DNA of 27,925 nucleotides from a virus. The position numbers were made by a program, and so were the translations under genes. Positions 7,350 to 23,284 of this stretch are shown in pieces. The stretch is from IMG/VR virus record IMGVR_UViG_3300028895_000339, positions 1-27,925 of that record; one strand, 5' to 3'. The notes below the pieces were generated by a model that did no database searches, was not told the DNA's origin, and saw only the letters and a list, made by a program, of their open reading frames with translations. Numbering within the stretch: position 1 is the stretch's first letter; each line of letters opens with the position of its first letter.

Positions 7350-7650
7350 CGCGCTGGACATGTCGGACGGCCGCGATCGTGCGGCCTTGCGTGCCGGCGT
7401 GTCGCGCGGATGGGGCGTCACGGCCGACAAGCAGCGTCGGTTCATGGAGGCCCTCGACCGGGCGCTCGAGGCGGCGATTGCGGACGGCAACGCCCGCGAC
7501 ATCAACTCGTGCGTGAAGACGCTGGTGTCGATCGTCGGGCAGGTGCAGGCGGACGAGCATCTGGACCGCAAGTACGCCGAGGCCGCCGAGGGCAACCCGG
7601 ACGGCGTGACGAGGATCGTGGTTGAGTACGGCGACGATCAGGCTGGCTAA
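7342..7650 (+). CDS. Putative terminase small subunit
   Basis: The product is 102 aa with an ATG at 7342 behind GGGG and overlapping the upstream stop. It lies immediately before the large terminase gene and overlaps it by 29 bases. The chain is mainly helical: RAALRAGVSRGWGVTADKQ, MEALDRALEAAIADG, RDINSCVKTLVSIVGQVQAD, then an acidic tail. Small terminase subunits are helical oligomers that recognise the packaging site, and proteins of this size and pattern occupy this position in many siphoviruses. No classical helix-turn-helix is obvious, so the call rests mainly on position and helical pattern. Confidence 0.6.
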   Translation: MSDALDMSDGRDRAALRAGVSRGWGVTADKQRRFMEALDRALEAAIADGNARDINSCVKTLVSIVGQVQADEHLDRKYAEAAEGNPDGVTRIVVEYGDDQAG

Positions 7651-8890
7651 GCCGCACGCCGCCCAGCGGCAGGTGATGGCCGAGGCGGGGCGCTACAACG
7701 TCCTTGCCTGTGGCCGCCGCTGGGGCAAGACCGTGCTCGGTGCCAACCTCGCCCTCCGGGCCGCCCTCGAGGGCAAGCCCGTCGGCTGGTTCCACCCCAC
7801 CTACAAGATGCTGGGCGACGTGTGGCGGGATGTGCTCCGCCGGGTGAAGGGGCTGTCGCCCGAGCTCTACACCGTGTCCGTCCAAGAGAAGCGGGTCGAG
7901 CTTGCGACGGGCGGGCTCATCGAGTTCTGGTCGCTCGACAGCCCCGACGGCCCCCGCGGACGCAAGTACGCCCGGGTGATCGTGGACGAGGCGGCGATGA
8001 TCCGCGAGCTCGAGGAGGCATGGACGGCCGCCCTCCGCCCGCTGTTGACCGACTACCGCGGGGATGCGTGGTTCATGAGCACGCCCCGCGGCATGAACTA
8101 CTTCCACCGGCTGTTCATGAAGGGCGGCGACGATGACTGGCGATCGTGGCAGATGCCGACCTCGGCGAACCCGCACATGCACCCCGACGAGATCGAGGCG
8201 GCGCGTGGCGAGTTGCCCGAGGCCGTGTTCTCGCAGGAGTACCTCGCCGAGTTCATCGCGGACGCGGCCAACCCGTTCGGGATCGAGGCCATTCGTCGAT
8301 GCATTCGGGCGGATCTGCCTGACGCTGCCGGCCCGGTCGCCGCATGGGGAATCGACCTGGCCAAGTCGTCCGACTGGACCGTTGCCATTGGCCTCGATGC
8401 TCAGGGCCGCCTGCGGGCTTTCCAGCGGTGGCAGAGCGACTGGATGAACACGGTGGCCCGGGTGTCCGCGATGATTGCCGACACCCCGGCCACCGTGGAC
8501 TCGACGGGCGTGGGCGACGCGATCGTGGAGCAGCTGCAGGCCAAGTGCCCCCTGGTCGAGGGATTCAAGTTCAACCGGACGAGCAAGCAGCAGCTGATGG
8601 AAGGATTGGCCGTGGCGATCCAGCAGGGGCGGATCGGGTACCCTGCCGAGGGCGAATGCAAGCGGTTGATATCGGAACTCGAGATGTTCCGTTATGAATA
8701 CCATGCAACGGGCGTCCGGTACGAGGCCCCCGCCGGCGAGCACGACGACTGCGTCGATGCCCTCGCCCTTGCGTGGCGATGCCTTGCGTCCGGGCCACAG
8801 GCTCCCGTGCTGGACAGCGGGCGGTCGCCCGGGCCGGACGGTGCCGATTGGTGGCAGGATCGGGTCGAGAACGAGGACATGTGGGTATGA
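7622..8890 (+). CDS. terL: Terminase large subunit
   Basis: The product is 422 aa. It starts at TTG 7622 behind GAGGA (7611-7615), because the conserved N-terminal PHAAQRQVMAEA precedes the first ATG. ATPase motifs: Walker A CGRRWGKT (30-37), Walker B VIVDEA (119-124), coupling motif STPRG (153-157). The RNase-H-like nuclease follows with the Asp residues in AWGIDLAKSSDW (D245), VDSTGVGD (D293) and EHDDCVDALALA (D376-D379). The enzyme pumps DNA into the prohead and cuts concatemers. The domain set and length are complete for the Terminase_6/Terminase_1 type. The exact subfamily, and thus cos versus pac packaging, cannot be read by eye. Confidence 0.95.
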   Translation: MSTATIRLAKPHAAQRQVMAEAGRYNVLACGRRWGKTVLGANLALRAALEGKPVGWFHPTYKMLGDVWRDVLRRVKGLSPELYTVSVQEKRVELATGGLIEFWSLDSPDGPRGRKYARVIVDEAAMIRELEEAWTAALRPLLTDYRGDAWFMSTPRGMNYFHRLFMKGGDDDWRSWQMPTSANPHMHPDEIEAARGELPEAVFSQEYLAEFIADAANPFGIEAIRRCIRADLPDAAGPVAAWGIDLAKSSDWTVAIGLDAQGRLRAFQRWQSDWMNTVARVSAMIADTPATVDSTGVGDAIVEQLQAKCPLVEGFKFNRTSKQQLMEGLAVAIQQGRIGYPAEGECKRLISELEMFRYEYHATGVRYEAPAGEHDDCVDALALAWRCLASGPQAPVLDSGRSPGPDGADWWQDRVENEDMWV

Positions 8891-8893
8891 GCA

Positions 8894-11176
8894 ATGGCTG
8901 ACAGCCCGAACCTGATGCACGAGGCCACCATCGGATCCGCCATCCAGGCGTCGCGCCCGATGGCGTACCGCTGCGACCCGCATGAACTGCTCGCCCGCTA
9001 CGGCATGTGGGTTCACCGATGCGTGACCCTGAACGCCTCGGCTGCCGCGTGCGTCCCGATCCGACTCTACACCGTCGACACCTCCGGCGACATGCGTCGG
9101 TACGGCAAGGCCCGCAGCCTCGACGCGGCGACGAAGGCCCACGTTCACGGCCGGCGCGAGGTCGTGCCGTCGCCGTCGGCCAAGGCCGCGATGCGTGGAT
9201 ACGAGGGCGACCTGGTCGAGATCATGGATCACCCGATCCTCGACCTGCTGAACAACATCAACCGCTGGACGGAGGGCTACGGCTATCGCGAGTCGCTGTA
9301 CGCCGACCTTCAGATCTTCGGCCGCGCGTACACGCTGATCGTGGGCACGGGCGAGCCGGAGGAACTGTGGCGGATGCCGCCGCAGAAGATGAAGATCATC
9401 CGCGATCCGGAGGCGTTCGTCGGGGCGTTCCAGTTCGGCGATTCGACCAATCGCGTGAACTACGACCCGGGCGAGGTGCTGTGGTTCCGGCTGTTCGACC
9501 CGGTCAATCCGTGGGAGGGCTACGGGCCGCTCGAGGCATGGCTGAAGACCATCGACTCGATGCACCATGTCGCCGCGTTCCAGGACGAGCTCTTCCGCCG
9601 TGGCGGTGCCCCCGACTACATCGTGACGAGCAAGCGGGATCTCTCGCAGGAACAGAAGCGATCGTTCCGGCGTGAGTGGCGGCGGCTGTTCGGCCGGCTG
9701 TTCCGGCGCGAGGAAACGGTTGGTTTCCTTGGTGGCGAGGACGTGAGCCTGCAGAAGCTGACCGAGTCGCCGCGGGAGCTCGAGTTCACCGCGTCGCAGG
9801 ATCAGCTGCGTGACACGATCGGCCAGGCGTTCGGCGTGCCCAAGGCCCTGCTCACCGCGGACGACGTCAACCGCAGCAATGCGATGGAGGCGAGCAACGC
9901 CCATATGCGGCTGACCATCTGGCCGATGGTGCAGCGGGTGGAGGACGTGCTCAACGAGCAGCTGGTACGCCGGTGGGGCGAGAACCTGTTCATCATGCAC
10001 GAGAACCCGATCCGCGAGGACGCGACGATCCGGATCGCGGATCGGGCGTCGAAGCTGGCGTCGGGTTGGTCGGTGAACGAGGTGCGTGCGGACGACGGGG
10101 CGGAATCGATCGACGACCCGTACGCCGACATCCCGCTGGTGGCGAGCGGCGTCGTTTCTTTGGAGCGGGCGATCGAGCCACCGCAGATGCCGGACTTCGG
10201 CTTGGGCGGCCCGGACGAGCCCGACGATCCGGACGACGACGGCGACGATGAGCCGGACGCCCCGGAAGACGACGACGATCCGACCGCCGAGCAGATCGCG
10301 GACGAGCTCGAGCGTCGGGGATTCCGGATCGTCGCGCCGGTCACGCTCAACGGCTACTCCGGCTGCGGTTGCGGCAAGGCCCAATCACAGCGTGAGATGT
10401 GGCTGAAGGCCGATGTAAGCGGCAAGCCGCGCGAGATCGCCGGCGAGGCGAAGGGCTTGGCCGAGGAACTGGCGGACTTCTTTCGCCTGAAGATCGTGGC
10501 GGTGCTGCCGATCTTCGATCGCGTGGTGGTGCCGCCGCCGCTGGACGTGGTCCTGCCTGAAAGCGAGCGTGCCGCCGAGGAGGCCGAGGTGTCGGCGATC
10601 GCCGAGCCGCACGTCCGCGAGGCGACCCGCCGCGGCGGCCAGAAGGCACTGGACGAGATCGGGGCGGAGGTAGCGTTCGACCTAGACAACGCCCGCGTGC
10701 GTGCGTTCATCGCGGATCAGAGCCGCGTGATCGGCCGGGCGGCGACGGACAGGTGGCGATCGGACATCCGCGAGATCCTGCTGACGGGCACCTCGGAGGG
10801 GTTGACCGTCAATCAGATCGCGGATCGCATCCGTGCATCGACCGATCAGGCCGGATGGAAGGCCGAGCGGATCGCCACGACGGAGATCGGGTTCGCGGCG
10901 ACGGCGAGCCGGGATCAGGCGTACGCCCAATCCGAGATCGTCGTCGGCAAGGAATGGCTGCTCTCAAGCGATGCGTGTCCGCTGTGCGAGGCGATGGCGG
11001 CCGACTTCAACGCGGCCGGCGTCGCGCCCGGCGAGTCGTTTCTCAAGACGGGCAGCGTCTACACTTACGAAGGCGGCCCGCCGAACGGCATCAAGATCGA
11101 CTATCGTGACATTGTCGGCGGCGACGCGCACCCGTACTGCCGATGCACGATCGTTCCGGTGCTGGCGGGCGAGTGA
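8894..11176 (+). CDS. Portal protein fused to a Mu gpF-like (MuF) head domain
   Basis: The product is 760 aa from ATG 8894, three bases after the terminase stop. Residues 1 to about 420 are a phage portal: HPILDLLNNINRWTEGYGY, LYADLQIFGRAY, WRMPPQKMKI, LWFRLFDPVNPWEGYGPLEA, then FGVPKALLTADDVNRSN. An acidic Asp/Glu/Pro linker covers about 434-465 and is followed by SGCGCGK (about 489-495). The C-terminal MuF domain has CPLCEAM (695-701) and ends with HPYCRCTIVPV (746-756). The portal forms the dodecameric DNA gate, and MuF proteins are minor head proteins in or around it. They are usually separate genes, so each portal subunit here would carry one MuF domain. No toxin domain is visible. Confidence 0.92.
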   Translation: MADSPNLMHEATIGSAIQASRPMAYRCDPHELLARYGMWVHRCVTLNASAAACVPIRLYTVDTSGDMRRYGKARSLDAATKAHVHGRREVVPSPSAKAAMRGYEGDLVEIMDHPILDLLNNINRWTEGYGYRESLYADLQIFGRAYTLIVGTGEPEELWRMPPQKMKIIRDPEAFVGAFQFGDSTNRVNYDPGEVLWFRLFDPVNPWEGYGPLEAWLKTIDSMHHVAAFQDELFRRGGAPDYIVTSKRDLSQEQKRSFRREWRRLFGRLFRREETVGFLGGEDVSLQKLTESPRELEFTASQDQLRDTIGQAFGVPKALLTADDVNRSNAMEASNAHMRLTIWPMVQRVEDVLNEQLVRRWGENLFIMHENPIREDATIRIADRASKLASGWSVNEVRADDGAESIDDPYADIPLVASGVVSLERAIEPPQMPDFGLGGPDEPDDPDDDGDDEPDAPEDDDDPTAEQIADELERRGFRIVAPVTLNGYSGCGCGKAQSQREMWLKADVSGKPREIAGEAKGLAEELADFFRLKIVAVLPIFDRVVVPPPLDVVLPESERAAEEAEVSAIAEPHVREATRRGGQKALDEIGAEVAFDLDNARVRAFIADQSRVIGRAATDRWRSDIREILLTGTSEGLTVNQIADRIRASTDQAGWKAERIATTEIGFAATASRDQAYAQSEIVVGKEWLLSSDACPLCEAMAADFNAAGVAPGESFLKTGSVYTYEGGPPNGIKIDYRDIVGGDAHPYCRCTIVPVLAGE

Positions 11177-11385
11177 TGCAGCGGTGGTACGACGACAAGG
11201 CCATGCGAGCGGATCCGTCGCCCATGTCGTGGGTGTCGGTGATCGACGGCGACAAGCAACCGACGCTGATTGCAGTTCAATCGCAGATCTTCGAGCGGAT
11301 CGAATGCGAATGTCGCAGGATCGTGGGCCGGGAGGGTGTTCTGAAGCGTGACGGCCCCGACTGGCGGTACGAGGTAATCCAGTGA
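11176..11385 (+). CDS. Small hypothetical protein between portal and protease
   Basis: The product is 69 aa with an ATG at 11176 overlapping the portal stop (TGATG). The sequence begins MQRWYDDKAMRADPSPMSW, has a strand-like core (VSVIDGDKQPTLIAVQ), and a helix with two cysteines (FERIECECRRIVGRE). No family is recognised. Position suggests a head-assembly or accessory protein. Its stop overlaps the GTG start of the protease. Confidence 0.6.
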   Translation: MQRWYDDKAMRADPSPMSWVSVIDGDKQPTLIAVQSQIFERIECECRRIVGREGVLKRDGPDWRYEVIQ

Positions 11386-12011
11386 ACCGCAAGACCTGCG
11401 TGACGAAGATCGACGGCCGCGGCGAGCGTGCCCTGACGGCTAACATTTCGACCATCGCGGTGGACCGCGAGGGCGACGTGTTGCTGCCGTCCGGCATCGA
11501 CGTGTCGGACTTCAAGGCCAACCCGGTCGTGCTGCTCGGCCACGATGCGTCGGCCCTGCCGATCGGCAAGGCGACGAGCATTCGCAAGACGCCGAGTGCG
11601 GTGGTGGCCGACATGGTCTTCGCCGAGCGGCCGGCGGCCCACCCCGACGCGGCCGAGTGGGTGCCGGACACCGTCTACGATTTGTTCAAGCAGGGCGTGC
11701 TGAATGCGTTCTCGGTCGGGTTCACGATCGAGAACGCCCGGGCGGCGACCCGCAAGGACATCGACCGCCACGGCGAAGGCGTCCGCAGGGTCATCACCCA
11801 GTGGAAGCTGCTCGAGTTCAGCGTCGTCACGATCCCGGCCAACCAGGACGCACTGGTCACCGCGGTCAAGGACGGCCTGCTCGATCGCCGGTCGTTCACT
11901 TACGATATGCTGTCCGACGGGTTGGCCGAGCCGGCCGGCCCGATCACCATGCGGCTTGCGTCGCCGCGTGTCCTCTCGGTCGAGGGGACGAAGACGCTTC
12001 GCCTCCGCTGA
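11382..12011 (+). CDS. HK97-family prohead protease (S78)
   Basis: The product is 209 aa with a GTG start at 11382 overlapping the previous stop. Motifs of the HK97 prohead protease are clear: VVLLGHD with the candidate catalytic His (H54), FSVGFT with the candidate Ser (S111), and KLLEFSVVTIPANQDA (143-157). The enzyme matures the prohead by cutting the N-terminal delta domain of the capsid protein and then itself. It sits directly upstream of the capsid gene, as usual. The C-terminal 50 residues are variable and may be removed by self-cleavage. Confidence 0.92.
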   Translation: MNRKTCVTKIDGRGERALTANISTIAVDREGDVLLPSGIDVSDFKANPVVLLGHDASALPIGKATSIRKTPSAVVADMVFAERPAAHPDAAEWVPDTVYDLFKQGVLNAFSVGFTIENARAATRKDIDRHGEGVRRVITQWKLLEFSVVTIPANQDALVTAVKDGLLDRRSFTYDMLSDGLAEPAGPITMRLASPRVLSVEGTKTLRLR

Positions 12012-12132: not shown

Positions 12133-13572
12133 ATGCGATGGGATGCTTTCTGTGGCCAGCTCAAGGAGCTCGGCTACGACGGCCCCACCGATCAGTTCAC
12201 GTCCGTGACGGCGTGGCTGCGGGATGAGGGCTACAACACCGAAACCGTGGAGGCGGACGGCAAGACGTTCGACCTCCGGGACATGTTCGACAACCGCCCT
12301 GGCAAGCCGCTCGACGCGAGCAAGGCCGCGAAGCGTGCCGAGTTCGAGGACGAGGTGGATCGTCGTGTGCGTGAGGCGGTCGCCCGCCTCGAGGGTGCCA
12401 AGACCTACAAGGGCGGCGGCGTCGCCCGCGAGGTCAAGCACGAGGTGAAGGTTGGCAACGACCGGCTCACCGACGATCCCCGCGGCGGCTTCAAGTCGGC
12501 CGGCCACTTCTACGCCGAGGTCGCCAAGGCCGGCAAGCGTGACGGTGGCGGGATCCCCGACTCGCTGGCCCGCTGGGACCAGGTGAACAAGGGCACCCTC
12601 ACCGACTACGGCCAGGAGTCCGTCGGTGCCGACGGCGGCTTCGCCGTTCCGTCGGAGTTCCGCGACGCGATCATGTCGAAGGTGATGGGCGAGGACTCGA
12701 TCGCGGCTCGCTGCGATCAGTACACCCTGACCCGCAACAGCATGGCCGTGCCGGACGACGAGACGACCCCGTGGCAGACCAGTGGCGGCATCCTCGCCAA
12801 CTGGGAAGGCGAGGCCGGCACCTACGAGCAGAGCAAGCCCAGCCTCAAGCTGAAGGAGCTTCGTCTCCGCAAGCTGACCGCGCTTGTGCCGGTCACCGAG
12901 GAACTGCTCGAGGATGCGACCGCCATTGAGGCGTTCGTGTCCCGCAAGGCGGCCGAGAAGCTCGACTTCAAGCTCGGCGAGGCCATCTTCCGGGGCAACG
13001 GTGCGGGCCAGCCGCTCGGCTTTCTGAACTCGGACGCTCTCGTCGAAGTCGCCAAGTCCCAGGAGCCGAATGCTCAGACTGCCGACACCCTCGTCCAGTA
13101 CAACATCGAGCGCATGTGGGAGCGGATGTACGCCCCGTACCGTGCCAACGCGGTGTGGTTCGTGCATCACACGGTCGAGAAGGAGCTGATGCGGCTTTCG
13201 TTCTCGGGCCGCGACGACTCCGGCGATGCGGTGGCGAACTCGAGCCCGATCGGCTCGTACATCGCCCCGGGTGGTCTGGCGAACAGCCCGCTTGGTTCGC
13301 TGCTCGGCCGGCCGGTCATCGTCACCCAGCACTGCAACGAGCTCGGCGACGCCGGCGACATCATCTTCGCCGACCTCAGCCAGTACTGGCTCGGCATGAA
13401 GGCCGGCGGGATCGATGCTCAGACCTCGATCCACCTCTGGTTCGACCAAGACGCCGTGGCCTACAAGTTCCGTATGCGTGTGGACGGCCAGCCGTGGCTC
13501 TCCACGCCGATCGCGTCGCGTGACGGATCGGTGACTCAGACGGCCTTCGTGTCCCTGGCTGAGAGGGCTTGA
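12133..13572 (+). CDS. Major capsid protein, HK97 fold
   Basis: The product is 479 aa. An in-frame stop at 12106 and the sequence support ATG 12133, although the ribosome-binding site is weak. The first ~150 residues are the charged, helical delta (scaffolding) domain, with a coiled stretch about DASKAAKRAEFEDEVDRRV and a flexible Gly-rich segment. The HK97 fold follows: GADGGFAVPSEFRDAIM (about 170-186), KPSLKLKELRLRKLTALVPV, TEELLEDATAIEAFV, FRGNGAGQPLGFLNS, FVHHTVEKELMRL, and LLGRPVIVTQHCNELGDAGDI with IIFADLSQYWLGMK. These match Phage_capsid (PF05065) landmarks. The upstream protease probably removes the delta domain around residues 130-160. Confidence 0.95.
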   Translation: MRWDAFCGQLKELGYDGPTDQFTSVTAWLRDEGYNTETVEADGKTFDLRDMFDNRPGKPLDASKAAKRAEFEDEVDRRVREAVARLEGAKTYKGGGVAREVKHEVKVGNDRLTDDPRGGFKSAGHFYAEVAKAGKRDGGGIPDSLARWDQVNKGTLTDYGQESVGADGGFAVPSEFRDAIMSKVMGEDSIAARCDQYTLTRNSMAVPDDETTPWQTSGGILANWEGEAGTYEQSKPSLKLKELRLRKLTALVPVTEELLEDATAIEAFVSRKAAEKLDFKLGEAIFRGNGAGQPLGFLNSDALVEVAKSQEPNAQTADTLVQYNIERMWERMYAPYRANAVWFVHHTVEKELMRLSFSGRDDSGDAVANSSPIGSYIAPGGLANSPLGSLLGRPVIVTQHCNELGDAGDIIFADLSQYWLGMKAGGIDAQTSIHLWFDQDAVAYKFRMRVDGQPWLSTPIASRDGSVTQTAFVSLAERA

Positions 13573-16848: not shown

Positions 16849-17298
16849 ATGGCTGTCGTTGCTGGGACCGAAGGAAGCGTCGTGTTTGCGAACGGGTACG
16901 CCGTCAAGGTGACCGCGTGGACCATTTCGGTCGAGGCCGACGAGGTGGACATCACCTCGTGGGACGAGTACGGGGTGTCGTCCGACGCGGCTGCGCGCCT
17001 TGCATCGTGGGATGCGTACCTCGGTGGACGGAAGCGTTGGAGCGGCACCTACACGGCCGTCTTCGACTCGGCGACCGATCCGTACACGAGCAGCACGCCG
17101 CTGGGCATGACGGCAGCTGCTGGCTCGGCAGATTTCTTCATCGACAACAATGCGGGCGGCACGGACAGCAAGTTCTCGGGGAGCATCATCGTGACGGGCA
17201 TCGAGGCCACGAACGACGTGTCCGACGCTGCGCGGATCACCTTCTCGTTCCGCGGCACCGGGGTTCTCACCTACACCGAACAGACTGCCGGCGGTTGA
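16849..17298 (+). CDS. Major tail protein (tail tube)
   Basis: The product is 149 aa with an ATG at 16849 behind GGGAGC. The beta-rich sequence reads EGSVVFANGYAVKVTAWTIS, DEVDITSWDEYGVSS, then KRWSGTYTAVFDS and ends with ITFSFRGTGVLTYTEQ. The D-x-T-x-W/S...G...G-x-Y arrangement is seen in siphovirus tail tube proteins, which stack as hexameric rings. The location between the terminator and the chaperone/tape measure genes is diagnostic. Confidence 0.82.
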   Translation: MAVVAGTEGSVVFANGYAVKVTAWTISVEADEVDITSWDEYGVSSDAAARLASWDAYLGGRKRWSGTYTAVFDSATDPYTSSTPLGMTAAAGSADFFIDNNAGGTDSKFSGSIIVTGIEATNDVSDAARITFSFRGTGVLTYTEQTAGG

Positions 17299-17310
17299 TA
17301 GGAACAGACA

Positions 17311-17649
17311 ATGCTGGATACCGGGATCGAGTTCGTCCTCAGCGACGGGCAGACGTACACGCTGCACCCGCTCACCCTGCGTGACTGGTCGGCGTTCGCG
17401 GAATGGGTGGGCGAGCGCGAGGGCAAGAAGCTCGTCGCCTTCGACGCGATGATGCAGGCGGCGGAGACGATGAGCGGGATGCTCTGGCTCGTCCACCGCT
17501 CGTTCCGGAAGGCACATCCGCAGGTCGGCATCGATCGAGTCATGGACTTGCTCGGATCGCTCGACCGCCTGGCGTCGATCGGTGCCAGGGTGATGGCACA
17601 GCCGGACGCGGATCCGGACCCTCACCGGGCCGAGGAGGCGGTGACCTGA
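17311..17649 (+). CDS. Putative tail assembly chaperone, first gene
   Basis: The product is 112 aa with an ATG at 17311 and AGGAA upstream. It begins with a beta hairpin (IEFVLSDGQTYTLHPLTLRDW) and continues with helices (FAEWVGEREGK, FDAMMQAAETMSGMLWLVHR). This start pattern is usual for gpG-type tail chaperones, which guard the tape measure protein. No slippery heptamer for the expected -1 frameshift was found near its end, and the next gene restarts at TGATG. Confidence 0.7.
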   Translation: MLDTGIEFVLSDGQTYTLHPLTLRDWSAFAEWVGEREGKKLVAFDAMMQAAETMSGMLWLVHRSFRKAHPQVGIDRVMDLLGSLDRLASIGARVMAQPDADPDPHRAEEAVT

Positions 17650-17861
17650 TGGACCTTGCACTGATCGCCGCCCACCTGTCCAACTCGTCCCTGGACGAGG
17701 TGGCGGGGTGGTCGCTGCGTCAGTGCGTTGCGGTGACTCGGCGATATCGATCGGTGCTGCCGTTCCTCGGGCTCGGTGCCGACAGCAAGGCCGAGCCCGT
17801 GCGTGACCCGCAGGCGGTCAAGTCGATCGCCCATGCCTTCGGATTGGTGCGTCCGTCGTGA
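17649..17861 (+). CDS. Putative tail assembly chaperone, second gene
   Basis: The product is 70 aa with an ATG at 17649 overlapping the previous stop by one base. It is helical (MDLALIAAHLSNSSLDEVAG, WSLRQCVAVTRRYRSVLPFLG). It occupies the place of the gpGT extension or gpT-like product before the tape measure gene. In classical siphoviruses this part is made by frameshifting; here coupled reinitiation looks likely. Its stop overlaps the tape measure start. Confidence 0.6.
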   Translation: MDLALIAAHLSNSSLDEVAGWSLRQCVAVTRRYRSVLPFLGLGADSKAEPVRDPQAVKSIAHAFGLVRPS

Positions 17862-19264
17862 AGATCGCCGAAGCATTCGTCGAGATCAGTGCCCGGTTCG
17901 ACAAGCTCAAGCAGGGTTTGTCAGGTGCCGTGTCAACGGCACGCACTCAGGTCGGAAAGATCGAAGGCCGGTTTGCCAAGATGCGGGCAACCGTGGGCGC
18001 TGCCTTTGACGGATTGGCGAAGAAGGCTCGGGAATCGTTCACTCAGATTGGCGGCGCAATCACCGGCGCGGCGACCGGACTTCTTGCATTCGTCGACCGC
18101 ACGGCTGCGATCATCGATGAGCAGGCGAAGTTCGCCCGCCGCGTCGGCGTGACCGTCCAGTCTTTGCGAGAGTTCGAGCACGCAGCTGAACTGTCCGGAA
18201 TCCAAGCCAATCAGTTCCGGATGGCGTTGCAACGATTGACGCGACGGTCTGCGGAAGCCGCGATGGGCACCGGGGAAGCCAAAGACGCGCTGGCGGAACT
18301 GGGCATCAACGCCGAAAAGTTCGTCGGTCTTTCGCTTGAAGACAAGATGGGCGTGCTGGCGGATGCGTTCGCCAAAGTGACAAACCAGGCCGACCGAGTT
18401 CGCCTCGCGTTCAAGCTGTTTGACGCCGAAGGCGTGGCGATGGTCCAGATGCTCGAGAACGGCCGCATCGGCCTTGCATCGATGACGGCTGAGTTTCGCA
18501 GGCTTAATGGAGTCGTTACGGACGATTCGGCAAAGGCCCTCGAAGACTACAACGACTCGATGACGAAACTGAGGGCGACATTCAGTGGGCTTGGCGTCGA
18601 GTTGGCAACCGGATTGGCGCCTGCACTTCAAGCAATGGCCGAAGAGTGGACGATCTGGCTTCGCCGTGTGAAGGACACAGAGCTGTCGCTGAGTGGTGTT
18701 CTCGGGCTGCTTCGCGACATCGTCGCAAATTCCGTTTTTGGCGGCCTTCTTGGTTTGACGCCAGACACCTCGCTGGCACCCGACGAGCGTGGCGCAACGG
18801 AAACCCGTTCGGAGGCCGCACGCGAGAGGTTGCGCCGCGAACGTGAAATGGCGGAAATGTCCACGCAGGTCTTGATGGAGGAGGCGCGGCGAGAGTTTCA
18901 GCGAGCGCTGGCATACACCTCTCAGTACACCGGGTTGCCAGGCGCCGCATTCCTGCGCCCTCGCGGGTATGGGGAGTTCAGCACGGGCGGCAGAGGCAAC
19001 GAGGGCACACCGTTCACCCCCGGCCCCGGCTTCCTGCCCACGTCGTCGGCTCTGGACAAGCCGCTGGCCGCCGTGACGCAGGCGATCACCACGGCCGTCG
19101 CGTCCGGCATCGAGTCCGTCAGCACGGCGATCGGCGGCTTCAACGCCGGCGTCGAGCAGCAGATCCAGCGCAACATGCTGACGCAGTCGCAGCAGCAGAC
19201 CAGGCTGCTGCGTGACATCCGAGACGGCGTCAACGCGGCCCAGTCCGGAGGGGCATTCACATGA
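17858..19264 (+). CDS. Tail tape measure protein
   Basis: The product is 468 aa with a GTG start at 17858 overlapping the previous stop. It begins with VEISARFDKLKQGLSGAVS and long helices, then a family-typical segment SLREFEHAAELSGIQANQFR, ALQRLTRRSAEAAMGTGEAK and LGLSLEDKMGVLADAFAKV-like text, with a hydrophobic segment near FGGLLGL. The C-terminus is Gln-rich and helical. Tape measure proteins set tail length; with about 0.15 nm per residue this would give a tail near 70 nm. Glutamate codons GAA are about as common as GAG from 17870 to about 18960, whereas the 3' end and neighbouring genes use mostly GAG, hinting at a mosaic joint. Confidence 0.85.
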   Translation: MKIAEAFVEISARFDKLKQGLSGAVSTARTQVGKIEGRFAKMRATVGAAFDGLAKKARESFTQIGGAITGAATGLLAFVDRTAAIIDEQAKFARRVGVTVQSLREFEHAAELSGIQANQFRMALQRLTRRSAEAAMGTGEAKDALAELGINAEKFVGLSLEDKMGVLADAFAKVTNQADRVRLAFKLFDAEGVAMVQMLENGRIGLASMTAEFRRLNGVVTDDSAKALEDYNDSMTKLRATFSGLGVELATGLAPALQAMAEEWTIWLRRVKDTELSLSGVLGLLRDIVANSVFGGLLGLTPDTSLAPDERGATETRSEAARERLRREREMAEMSTQVLMEEARREFQRALAYTSQYTGLPGAAFLRPRGYGEFSTGGRGNEGTPFTPGPGFLPTSSALDKPLAAVTQAITTAVASGIESVSTAIGGFNAGVEQQIQRNMLTQSQQQTRLLRDIRDGVNAAQSGGAFT

Positions 19265-20088
19265 GCGCATTCCCCGGCACGGGCGAGTTCGGCGCGAATC
19301 CCCAGGTGCGGGTTGCCCGCGTCATCGGTGGCGAATCGTTCGAGCGATCGGGCGAGCGGGACCGCCGGAGAATCCAGTGGTCCGTCACGCCGAAGGATCC
19401 GAGCGTCGAGGCACAGGTGGCGACGGCGACGCTGGCGTGGCGTGCCGTCGGCGTCCAGGTCGGCGACGCCCACCCGGAAGATCCGTCGCTGCGGGCGTCC
19501 GAGTTCCGCGTGTCGCAGACGCGCGAGAACCGGTACGCATGGGTCGTCGAGTGGACGTACCAGCCGGTATCGCCCACGGACCCCGGCGGCGACGACCCGA
19601 CCGAGCCCGGGTTCGTCGAGGTGAACGTGGACAACGAAGTCGAGTTCCAGGACTTCTACGTTCAGGGTGCAGACTTCTACACCAATGGCCTGCCCCCGCT
19701 CCCGCCGCAGCCGACGACGATCGGAGAGATCATTGCCGTGGATGGCCGGCCGACGAGTCTGCCGGTGCGCACGATCCGGGCCGACATCTCCATCATCGTC
19801 GAGGGCTTTCCGGACTTTGCCACGTTCGCCACGGCAAGCGGCCGACGGAACAACGTGACATTCCTAGGCGGTGCTGTCGGCAGCATCCTGTACACGGGCG
19901 CCCGATCGAACCGCATCGCACCGAACCGGTTCCGCGTGACGCACACCTTCGTGCAGGACGAGTTCTTCCACATGCGTCAGATCGGCACGTTCGATCCTGA
20001 CACGGGCGATCTGATCGACTGCTTTGTAATCCAGCCTTTTCGCAACTTCGCCGACTTCCAAGCCGTGCTTGGGTTGCCGCCGCTGTGA
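19261..20088 (+). CDS. Tail protein downstream of the tape measure, distal-tail candidate
   Basis: The product is 275 aa with an ATG at 19261 overlapping the tape measure end. It is rich in beta strands (QVRVARVIGGESFERSGERD, RYAWVVEWTYQPVS, VRTIRADISIIVEGFPDF, NRFRVTHTFVQDEFFHMRQI) with a central Pro-rich linker (SPTDPGGDDPTEPGF). Genes here usually encode distal-tail or baseplate hub proteins. I cannot match a specific family by eye, so the call is positional. Confidence 0.6.
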   Translation: MSAFPGTGEFGANPQVRVARVIGGESFERSGERDRRRIQWSVTPKDPSVEAQVATATLAWRAVGVQVGDAHPEDPSLRASEFRVSQTRENRYAWVVEWTYQPVSPTDPGGDDPTEPGFVEVNVDNEVEFQDFYVQGADFYTNGLPPLPPQPTTIGEIIAVDGRPTSLPVRTIRADISIIVEGFPDFATFATASGRRNNVTFLGGAVGSILYTGARSNRIAPNRFRVTHTFVQDEFFHMRQIGTFDPDTGDLIDCFVIQPFRNFADFQAVLGLPPL

Positions 20089-20603
20089 CGTACTACCCCA
20101 GGTTCAACAGCGGCCAGAACAAGCTCACGCCCGAGTTGCTCAACCGGGCGATGGACGCTCTGCAATGGTTCGAGTCGAACCGCCGGCGGATTGCGTTCAA
20201 GAAGCCGGATCAATATGTGCGTCGTCGCGACGTGCCTGGATTCTGGGCGATCATCCTGAACTCGACGCCGGTGAGCGGGCAGCCGAATCGGTGGGAGTAC
20301 CAGTGGATCGAGGCCAAGAAGAACGGACGCGGGTACGGCACATGGGCGCCGGATCCGGAAGGACGCAGCAGCGTCAACGACGGCAACGCCTATAACGTGC
20401 TCGAGAACCCCAACGACGGCACCGGCGTCGAGGGCATCGGCGTGGACGTGGATACTCTGCCTGGTACTTTCGCCATCAAGCCCGTGCCTGCCAGTACGCT
20501 CGTCCGGATGTCCACGATCAAGGCCCCGGCTGATGAACCGGAAGAGCCGGCAGTGGTGGAGTACTGGTTCTCATACTGGAATGCCGTGGATGGCCAGTGC
20601 TGA
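20085..20603 (+). CDS. Putative minor tail protein
   Basis: The product is 172 aa with a GTG start at 20085 overlapping the previous stop. An N-terminal helix (KLTPELLNRAMDALQWFESN) resembles the short oligomerisation helix of tail adaptor proteins. Then come beta strands (FWAIILNSTPVSG, YQWIEAKKNGRGYGTW, TFAIKPVPASTLVRMS). It ends with an acidic Pro-rich turn and VEYWFSYWN. Function inferred from position only. Confidence 0.58.
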   Translation: MTYYPRFNSGQNKLTPELLNRAMDALQWFESNRRRIAFKKPDQYVRRRDVPGFWAIILNSTPVSGQPNRWEYQWIEAKKNGRGYGTWAPDPEGRSSVNDGNAYNVLENPNDGTGVEGIGVDVDTLPGTFAIKPVPASTLVRMSTIKAPADEPEEPAVVEYWFSYWNAVDGQC

Positions 20604-21856
20604 TGACGCACGCGCATTGGACATGTTGCTGCACTGGCGGTCCAGTCTGTTACCCGATCATCCTTTGTCCGTGTGACGAAGGATCGTTCTCGCCCGGGCT
20701 GAACGCCTTGCAGTTCGGGCTCGTCTGCGGGCAGGGTGTTGCCCAGGCATTGATCGGCGGCGGCGCCGGCATCTGCACGAACGACCAGGGCGAACTGCCA
20801 GGTATCTACGAGCCCGGTGGAACGTACATCGTCGAAGTCCCGGACGGCCAGGGCGGACTTCCGGGCGGCCCGCTTTGTTTCAGCGTGTCGCCCGAACCGG
20901 GCAGCATCTTCCTCGACGTGGTGGCGGCGTGTCCTGCCGTCTTCGGTCAGCCGTCGACTTCGACCTGCGACAATCCGGACTGCTGCGAGGAGGTGATCGT
21001 TCCGATCGAAGTCTTCGTGTTGCAGTGGTGCGGGCCGTGCCCGACGAGCCAGAGTCCGCCGTTGGATGCGTCGCAAACGACGCAGTACGCTGCCGTCGGT
21101 TCTGTCCCGGATGGATGCGACGTCGTGCAGATCACGCTCAACGGCAATCTGTACTGCTTCGAGGTGATCCGTCCGAGCGTCTTCGTGAACTCGGACACGC
21201 CGCTTGTTTCCATTGAGGTGTGTTACGACGAATGCGAAGGACCGCCCGGCGAACCGAGCGCGTGCTGCGTCATCGAGGCTCCGCCGACCAGTTGCACCGA
21301 ATGCACTCCGGAACTGTGCCCGAACACGTTTACCATTGTCATTCCGGCGTTGTCCAGGCTGTGCTGCCGCCACGACGGTACGCCCGTGGGTCCGCCCTGC
21401 AATCCGACTGTTGGATCATGCAACTTTGCTGATCCGGACGAATGCCCGGTTCTTACAACGATCACGTTTGAAGACTGCGCCGTAGGCGACCCGCTTTCCA
21501 TTTCTCCGGAACAGCCATTGCTGTATGAAGGGCGATACAACCCGGCCATCACGCGCATCGAATGTTTGACGCGCGGCGAGTTCACCGTCCCGTGCCAATC
21601 CTGTTCCGGATGGGGTGGATGTGGGGCGACGACGTGCGTACCGAACGATTCGTTATGGCCTCTCGGCGAAAGCCGCTGGATTTTTAGAACCAACTTCATT
21701 GGCTGGTTTGTGCGCATCGGTCCAGAATCGGTTTGTCCGCTTGGCAACTATCGTTTCTGCCGATTTGCGAGTCAGGCTCAGCCACCAAACGAACAAAAAT
21801 TCGTGAGGCGTGACGACTTCCTGCCCATCAACGCTTTGACATTGCAGGCCGTCTGA
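20603..21856 (+). CDS. Very cysteine-rich putative tail/virion protein
   Basis: The product is 417 aa with ATG 20603 overlapping the previous stop by one base (a GTG at 20597 is an alternative). I count 37 cysteines, nearly 9 percent, in clusters such as WTCCCTGGPVCYPIILCPC, CDNPDCCEE, CGPC, SCTECTPELC and CQSCSGWGGCGATTC, between beta strands (TYIVEVPDG, EVFVLQWCG, VVQITLNGNLYCFEV). It has no signal peptide, consistent with assembly in a virion. The cysteines could bind metal or form disulfides after release. The last ~80 residues have few. Its base composition is visibly less GC-rich than its neighbours. I know no established family for it. Confidence 0.65.
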   Translation: MTHAHWTCCCTGGPVCYPIILCPCDEGSFSPGLNALQFGLVCGQGVAQALIGGGAGICTNDQGELPGIYEPGGTYIVEVPDGQGGLPGGPLCFSVSPEPGSIFLDVVAACPAVFGQPSTSTCDNPDCCEEVIVPIEVFVLQWCGPCPTSQSPPLDASQTTQYAAVGSVPDGCDVVQITLNGNLYCFEVIRPSVFVNSDTPLVSIEVCYDECEGPPGEPSACCVIEAPPTSCTECTPELCPNTFTIVIPALSRLCCRHDGTPVGPPCNPTVGSCNFADPDECPVLTTITFEDCAVGDPLSISPEQPLLYEGRYNPAITRIECLTRGEFTVPCQSCSGWGGCGATTCVPNDSLWPLGESRWIFRTNFIGWFVRIGPESVCPLGNYRFCRFASQAQPPNEQKFVRRDDFLPINALTLQAV

Positions 21857-22272
21857 TGCACAGCGGTTGCGTCCACTACGATCCGACGAGCAGGCACGCA
21901 GGCCGGTGTGCCCTGGGCATCTACGGCGCGGGCACGGTGAGCCCTGGTACCTGCCTCGTCCAATGCCAGTCGTTCACAGGCAACGAGACGCTGCGTGCCG
22001 CCTATCGCCGCCGGGTCATGCTCACGGCCAACGGCATCGATGTCAGGACGATGCAGCCGGCCGTCGCCGTCACCGTCCACCGCTGGCTGGGCATCGACTG
22101 GATTGGGAAGCCGTGGCCGCTTCGCCTCCGGGTGCGAACCTCGTGGCCGTTCGTGGCCATCGAGGATGCCCCCGGCTGCGGCTGTATCATGAGGCTGAAG
22201 CGGCTGTGGCAGCGGCTGCGGCCGGCGAAGCCAAAGAAGGGATGCGGATGCCGTTCATCAGCGTCAACCTGA
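21856..22272 (+). CDS. Cysteine-motif hypothetical protein with two C-terminal CGC motifs
   Basis: The product is 138 aa with an ATG at 21856 overlapping the previous stop. The N-terminus has four cysteines spaced like a zinc-binding module (GCVHYDPTSRHAGRC, then GTCLVQC). A basic middle (AAYRRRVMLT, VTVHRWLGIDW) leads to two GCGC elements: APGCGCIMRLKRLWQRLRP and KKGCGCRSS. It adjoins the cysteine-rich gene, so the two may form one module. No known function; a role in tail assembly or metal binding is inference. Confidence 0.62.
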   Translation: MHSGCVHYDPTSRHAGRCALGIYGAGTVSPGTCLVQCQSFTGNETLRAAYRRRVMLTANGIDVRTMQPAVAVTVHRWLGIDWIGKPWPLRLRVRTSWPFVAIEDAPGCGCIMRLKRLWQRLRPAKPKKGCGCRSSAST

Positions 22273-22568
22273 CCACGACCGGCTGGAGGTCGCAGGCCAT
22301 CGAGGTCGGCGCGTCCACCAGGCTGGCCCTCGCCGTCGATCATGACGACGCGACGTACAGCTGGACGTTGGGGGCGCTGACGCTGCAGTGGACGGTGGAC
22401 GAGGACCGCAAGGTGTGGGTGGACTTCGATCCGGCGATCGTGCTGTTGTCCGGCACCCGTGGCTACCCGCGGGTGCCCGTCGCCGGCGTGCTGGCCGTCC
22501 GCCTCCGCTGCGCGGCTCCCGATACCGGGGCAGACCCGTCCTGCCGCCTGGACTACCTGCTGACATGA
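22248..22568 (+). CDS. Small beta-rich hypothetical protein
   Basis: The product is 106 aa. I chose ATG 22248, with AAGGG at 22237-22241, over ATG 22242, which is too close to that site. It overlaps the end of the preceding gene by 25 bases in another frame. Strands FISVNLTTTGWRSQAIEVG, TYSWTLGALTLQWTV, KVWVDFDPAIVLLSG and VLAVRLRCAA suggest an immunoglobulin-like sandwich. Probably a small virion component; function unknown. Confidence 0.58.
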   Translation: MPFISVNLTTTGWRSQAIEVGASTRLALAVDHDDATYSWTLGALTLQWTVDEDRKVWVDFDPAIVLLSGTRGYPRVPVAGVLAVRLRCAAPDTGADPSCRLDYLLT

Positions 22569-23284
22569 GCGACGCCGCGAACATCCCGTACGCCCAGCGA
22601 GAGCCGGACGACTGGACGGGCTCGCCGCTCGATGTCGATGGCGCCTTGGACGAGTTGGCGTCGAGGACGTCGGACGCAGAGACGGCGATCGACGCGCGGA
22701 TCAAGTACGCCGACATCAAGGGCAACGGGATCATCGCGAGGTCTGCCCCGACGGACTTCGAGAATCGGACGATCACCGCCGGTACCGGCATCACGGTGAC
22801 GGACGGCGACGGTGTGTCCGGGAATCCGACGATCGCGAGTCTGATCGACGGTGCGTCGTACTACGCCGGATCGAACAGCAGCACATTCACGACCTCGGAA
22901 ACCGATGTCCCATTCGACACGGCGAATCGCACGGCTTCGTTCGTGTCGGTATCGAGCGGTGCATTCACCGTGTCGGCGGATGGCGTGTACATGATCACCG
23001 CATCGGTGAACGCCAACCAGAACGGCAGTTCGACGCTGTCGGCCTGGTACGCTCGCCTGATGGTGGACACCGGCTCAGGCTACGCGGAGACGTACCCTTG
23101 TCGTACGTCGGGCGTGACCGACAACGCGGTCCATGACTGGCAGTCCGGCTCGTTGTCGTGCATCATCCCGCTCGACAACGGCGACTCGTTCAAGATCACC
23201 GGTGCTCGAGCGTCCGGATCGGCCACGTTCGAATGGCGCGGTGGCCTCGGATACTGTCACATCACCATTCTGAGGATCGCCTGA
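22565..23284 (+). CDS. Tail fibre-like protein with C1q/TNF-like head
   Basis: The product is 239 aa with an ATG at 22565 overlapping the previous stop. Residues 20-60 form a helical trimerisation stem (LDVDGALDELASRTSDAETA). Then comes a fibre repeat TITAGTGITVTDGDGVSGNP, a motif common in tail fibres. The C-terminal 140 residues look like a C1q/TNF jelly roll: ASFVSVSSGAFTVSADGVYM, ITASVNANQNGSSTLSAWYA, SLSCIIPLDNGDSFKI and GGLGYCHITILRIA. Such heads bind receptors on the host surface. Confidence 0.75.
   Translation: MSDAANIPYAQREPDDWTGSPLDVDGALDELASRTSDAETAIDARIKYADIKGNGIIARSAPTDFENRTITAGTGITVTDGDGVSGNPTIASLIDGASYYAGSNSSTFTTSETDVPFDTANRTASFVSVSSGAFTVSADGVYMITASVNANQNGSSTLSAWYARLMVDTGSGYAETYPCRTSGVTDNAVHDWQSGSLSCIIPLDNGDSFKITGARASGSATFEWRGGLGYCHITILRIA

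Follow-up and report, generated by a model that had tools for sequence, protein, structure and literature searches.

The reading frame at 20603-21856 of the window (the whole stretch of DNA analysed, a linear IMG/VR virus record of 27,925 bases from an uncultured tailed phage) encodes a real and unusual protein, and the present analysis adds the finding that its extreme cysteine content recurs in the tail-tip region of related phages. The preliminary description of this DNA had reported 37 cysteines in 417 residues, and both the coordinates (ATG at 20603, stop codon ending at 21856) and the count (37/417, 8.87%) were confirmed; an in-frame GTG at 20597 would lengthen the product by two residues. 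Its characterization of this content as extraordinary also held. Among 765 plus-strand ORFs of at least 150 aa drawn from the window and the related loci (median cysteine content 0.75%, 99th percentile 5.4%), the protein ranked second, exceeded only by its positional analogue in the related locus L079 (9.9%), and the probability of 37 cysteines in 417 residues under a binomial model with 1-2% cysteine was 3e-23 to 1e-13. The tail proteins encoded upstream contained 0-0.6% cysteine. The remaining composition was skewed as well, with 48 prolines, 42 glycines, 3 histidines, a single lysine, a single methionine and a pI of 4.1.

The genes of the window (Table 1) were arranged in the order TerL, portal, protease, capsid, head-tail genes, major tail protein, tape measure, g19261, g20085 and Cys-rich gene, with the small eight-cysteine protein and then the weakly C1q/BclA_C-like protein on the 3' side; the latter is possibly a fibre or receptor-binding tip, and its start probably lies nearer ~22568. 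Judged by this gene order the tail module appears siphovirus-like (non-contractile), and family scans of the window, which covered the small ORFs in part, identified no contractile sheath. The Cys-rich gene thus occupies a tail-module position downstream of the tape measure, as looked for in an adhesin or receptor-binding protein. Its earlier placement in the tail region agreed with our reading of the window, and because the same order was found in L079, a tail-tip location for the 417-aa protein is supported.

Table 1. Features of the window discussed in the text.
Feature	Coordinates	Strand	Remarks
TerL	7622-8890		
Portal, Mu-F-like C-terminus	8894-11176		
Protease	11382-12011		
HK97-type major capsid protein	12133-13572		
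Major tail protein	16849-17298	+	assigned by position and conservation; query for tail-related phages
Tape measure protein, short (468 aa)	17858-19264	+	phrog_9483, E 3.6e-44
g19261 (275 aa), conserved tail gene after tape measure	19261-20088	+	homologues in L079, L081, L083, L088, L090
g20085 (172 aa), conserved tail-tip gene directly upstream of Cys-rich gene	20085-20603	+	homologues in L084, L079
Cys-rich tail-region protein	20603-21856	+	417 aa, 37 Cys; no family or homologue in the searches described
Small Cys protein (138 aa)	21856-22272	+	8 Cys (5.8%); coupled start TGATG
C1q/BclA_C-like protein	22388-23284	+	weak matches, below curated cut-offs

Several other features of the head and tail genes were recorded. 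The tape measure comprises only 468 aa, and a short tail is therefore predicted; the tape measure at the same position in L079 comprises 957 aa. A two-gene tail-assembly-chaperone region spans 17311-17861, in which ATG 17649 is the most likely start of the second ORF; this ATG overlaps the stop codon of the first ORF (TGATG), which therefore suggests coupling and not an obvious frameshift. At its N-terminus the capsid protein is extended by about 110 aa, a long addition that was matched over its full length in L001-L012, not in most proteobacterial relatives. A structure model of g19261 built from four sequences reached a pLDDT of 49.9 with PDB matches at noise level; for residues 109-237 the top PDB matches were tail-terminator proteins (Z 5.4-6.1, within noise), and the C-terminal half of the model is consistent with a tail ring protein. 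The same model had 14 matches in BFVD, mostly to uncharacterised phage proteins. The AlphaFold2 single-sequence model of the 417-aa protein reached a pLDDT of 35.6, too low to bear on its fold or on the beta strands named in the preliminary description, although its few secondary elements were nearly all strands.

The Cys-rich ORF is a real coding sequence by frame, its synonymous-codon score being the best of the six frames, and it is joined at both ends to neighbouring genes by one-base TGATG overlaps (the g20085 stop on one side, the downstream start on the other). The score itself was low, however, at 0.06 versus 0.25-0.33 in the neighbours. A GC content below that of the neighbours had been pointed out previously as a sign of separate ancestry; the value was indeed lower (0.604 versus 0.62-0.67 in the flanking tail genes), although the dip was modest, and GC3 was 0.706 versus 0.77-0.84. 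Because GC, GC3 and codon usage are all atypical, separate ancestry of the gene is plausible.

To follow the region into other phages, capsid relatives with head genes in common with the window were fetched from IMG/VR; the closest of these, L001-L003 (94-99% capsid identity), all end before the Cys-rich region. Tail-related contigs that do cover it were obtained by using a major-tail-protein alignment as the query. In L079 the tape measure is followed by homologues of g19261 (E 7e-18) and g20085 (E 1e-3), a Cys-rich protein of 576 aa with 57 cysteines and a 205-aa protein with 8 cysteines that matched phrog_13558. L084 encodes a Cys-rich protein (341 aa, 26 Cys, 7.6%) three genes after its g20085 homologue (E 1.5e-25, 41% identity), and L085 a 401-aa protein with 19 cysteines together with an overlapping 15-cysteine ORF that weakly matched phrog_13558. 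The siblings L086 and L087 each encode a ~510-aa protein with 3.7-4.7% cysteine and a ~150-aa protein with 8 cysteines. Including the window, six of six tail-related loci thus had a downstream protein that comprises 300 aa or more and contains 3.7-9.9% cysteine, a count in which L086 and L087 are siblings and the relatedness of L085-L087 is that of a weak major-tail-protein match. None of 28 head-related control loci, each of which continues downstream for at least 8 kb past the capsid gene, had such a protein (at least 300 aa and at least 3.7% cysteine), although this control is imperfect because some of the contigs break off not far from the tape measure.

The small Cys protein of the window, in which GCGC patterns were seen, corresponds in position to the small Cys proteins at 9908-10522 of L079 and 14111-14713 of L085, and it had no match in the family scans. 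The C-terminal 36 residues of the L084 Cys-rich protein (7974-9023; GLGD..KSCAGCKKRQGLLN) matched phrog_32048; this C-terminus also weakly matched proteins of the Nonlabens phages P12024S/L, here joined to a Cys-rich protein.

Conservation of cysteines in homologues, the check proposed in the preliminary description, could be followed in the sibling pair, the one homologous pair among the positional analogues. The large Cys-rich proteins of L086 and L087 were identical at 276 of 501 aligned residues (55%), and cysteine columns were kept at 19/23 positions in the large protein and 7/7 in the small one, with only tryptophan more conserved. In the large pair (L086 17278-18906 and L087 16870-18462) the last ~60 residues were near-identical while the rest was ~50% identical; this near-identical stretch is a seven-cysteine knuckle, outside which ~12 of 16 cysteines were kept (manual count), and it may reflect either recent recombination or strong constraint. 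Because cysteine-richness recurs in other tail-related phages and the cysteines are conserved within this pair, the view that the cysteine-richness of the tail-tip region is not accidental is supported.

Similarity between the window protein and its Cys-rich analogues was nowhere above shuffled controls, and these may therefore be unrelated proteins with composition alone in common. Since the trait recurs in related phages in which no similarity is detectable, extreme cysteine-richness seems to be a property of the position and not of a single protein family. No homologue of the 417-aa protein was found in PHROGs, Pfam, NCBIfam, PDB, INPHARED or PLSDB, in IMG/VR and GTDB peptide scans, or in 396 genomes of the Acidobacterium's phylum and 398 of the alphaproteobacterium's phylum. 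Two weak matches were rejected, one that by eye resembled lysine 2,3-aminomutase and one with six stops inside. A literature search returned no paper describing such a Cys-rich tail-tip protein. As to the host, capsid relatives in genomes were mostly proteobacterial, with identities of about 50% or less; g19261 was absent from the sampled genomes in the phyla of the alphaproteobacterial, Desulfobacteraceae and Neomarinimicrobiota centres, and had one partial match in the Acidobacterium's phylum, at a locus where no Cys-rich analogue was recognised. A planctomycete host is a suspicion of ours, prompted by similar Cys motifs.

How the cysteines are used is a question on which their spacing bears. 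The preliminary description had argued from cysteine pairs, triplets, CxC and CxxC motifs, an argument that we do not retain: in the 417-aa protein CC occurred 5 times (3.2 expected from shuffled sequences), CxC twice (3.2 expected) and CxxC three times (3.1 expected), and CC/CxxC enrichment was rejected because the counts were at shuffle level. A candidate internal repeat (VPDG...CF.V...CC, ~79-128 and 168-222) was likewise rejected (35 versus 32.9 +/- 6.1 in shuffled controls). Under an alternative that we consider unlikely, the protein would be a metal-binding scaffold whose cysteine clusters bind Zn or Fe-S and which organises the tail tip or acts as a late assembly factor. Mild CxxC excesses in the L079 analogue (10 versus 5.5, p 0.036) and the L085 analogue (4 versus 0.8, p 0.005) point in this direction, as do the knuckle-like CxxC/CGC patterns in the phrog_13558-matching small Cys neighbours of L079 and L085. 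The window protein, however, has no excess of CxxC or CxC, and hence no paired CxxC above chance of the kind looked for in Zn ribbons and other metal-binding proteins, and it matched none of the metal-binding families in Pfam, NCBIfam and PDB. Because CxxC is not enriched and histidines are few (3), metal binding is the less likely chemistry for this protein and disulfides are mildly favoured. Thirty-seven is an odd number, and therefore at least one cysteine would be free or intermolecular.

We therefore consider disulfides in the setting of the tail tip. The reading we prefer, to which we give about an even chance, is that the 417-aa protein is an adhesin or decoration protein of the tail tip, stabilised by disulfides and rapidly replaced, which folds in the reduced state and is oxidised after release. 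The sequences show the reading frame, its composition, its place in the operon and the recurrence of the trait; presence in the virion, disulfide state and adhesive function are what we infer. The protein would be a structural part of the tail tip or of the machinery with which a non-contractile tailed phage contacts its host, and would be made reduced in the host cytoplasm. Upon release into an oxidising environment its cysteines would form disulfide pairs, and these would keep small domains rich in Pro and Gly rigid. On such a framework loops and whole domains could change or be swapped between phages while the adhesive surface stays stable, and cysteine-richness could be kept where sequence is not because a disulfide framework would tolerate replacement of loops and domains. 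Rapid replacement would fit the atypical codon use and the lack of a homologue, and because related phages carry unrelated-looking but also Cys-rich proteins at this place, the comparison suggests a fast-changing, disulfide-hardened, host-gripping part at the tail tip. More tentatively, and as a possibility that we rate well below the preferred reading, a broad set of uncultured phages may have a tail-tip slot filled by unrelated, rapidly replaced proteins of 4-10% cysteine, a form of disulfide-scaffolded diversification of host attachment in which selection would keep the chemistry of the framework and not sequence or fold. A tail-tip position that repeatedly recruits such proteins without similarity would point to oxidation-dependent maturation of the virion outside the cell, and also to a chemical scaffold on which receptor binding could evolve fast.

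It is improbable, in our estimate, that the gene is instead a non-virion accessory of the late operon (a moron), encoding for example a secreted or host-surface-modifying Cys-rich protein. Atypical codon usage and the absence of homology to any structural family would suit such a gene, but it overlaps the preceding gene at its start and the following gene at its stop, related phages also encode Cys-rich proteins in this region, and no obvious signal peptide was seen in the protein by eye. We regard as quite doubtful a redox-triggered component, whose disulfides would keep the tip locked and be reduced at the surface of the host, an idea put forward as speculation for Agrobacterium phage Milano. 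In its favour, Milano tails contracted in vitro only when the reducing agent DTT was added to guanidine (PMC10811340), and the cysteine content of the 417-aa protein is ~4 times that of Milano structural proteins. Against it, the Milano locks join separate subunits of a contractile sheath and baseplate, no gene for a sheath was identified among the window genes scanned against families, and 37 cysteines in one chain suit intrachain stabilisation better than a switch.

The preferred disulfide-stabilised adhesin or decoration protein can be set beside known families and systems. In L079 a protein matching phrog_13558 (unknown function) directly follows the Cys-rich protein, and in L085 the matching ORF overlaps the end of the Cys-rich protein; in this the window differs, as neither its small Cys protein nor the 417-aa protein matched this family. 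Phrog_32048, also of unknown function, is represented at the C-terminus of the L084 protein, not in the window protein. Phage virion proteins are usually cysteine-poor (0.7-0.9% in T4 and A511 proteins), and the Milano virion, with a disulfide network and 2.1% cysteine in its structural proteins, departs from this (PMC10811340). Milano and the window phage are alike in the unusually high cysteine content of virion proteins (a putative one in the window), for which a role in stability and triggering has been proposed in Milano. They differ in that Milano has a contractile tail with cysteines spread over its structural proteins and paired in intersubunit bonds, whereas the window phage has a siphovirus-type module in which a single protein carries 8.9% cysteine.
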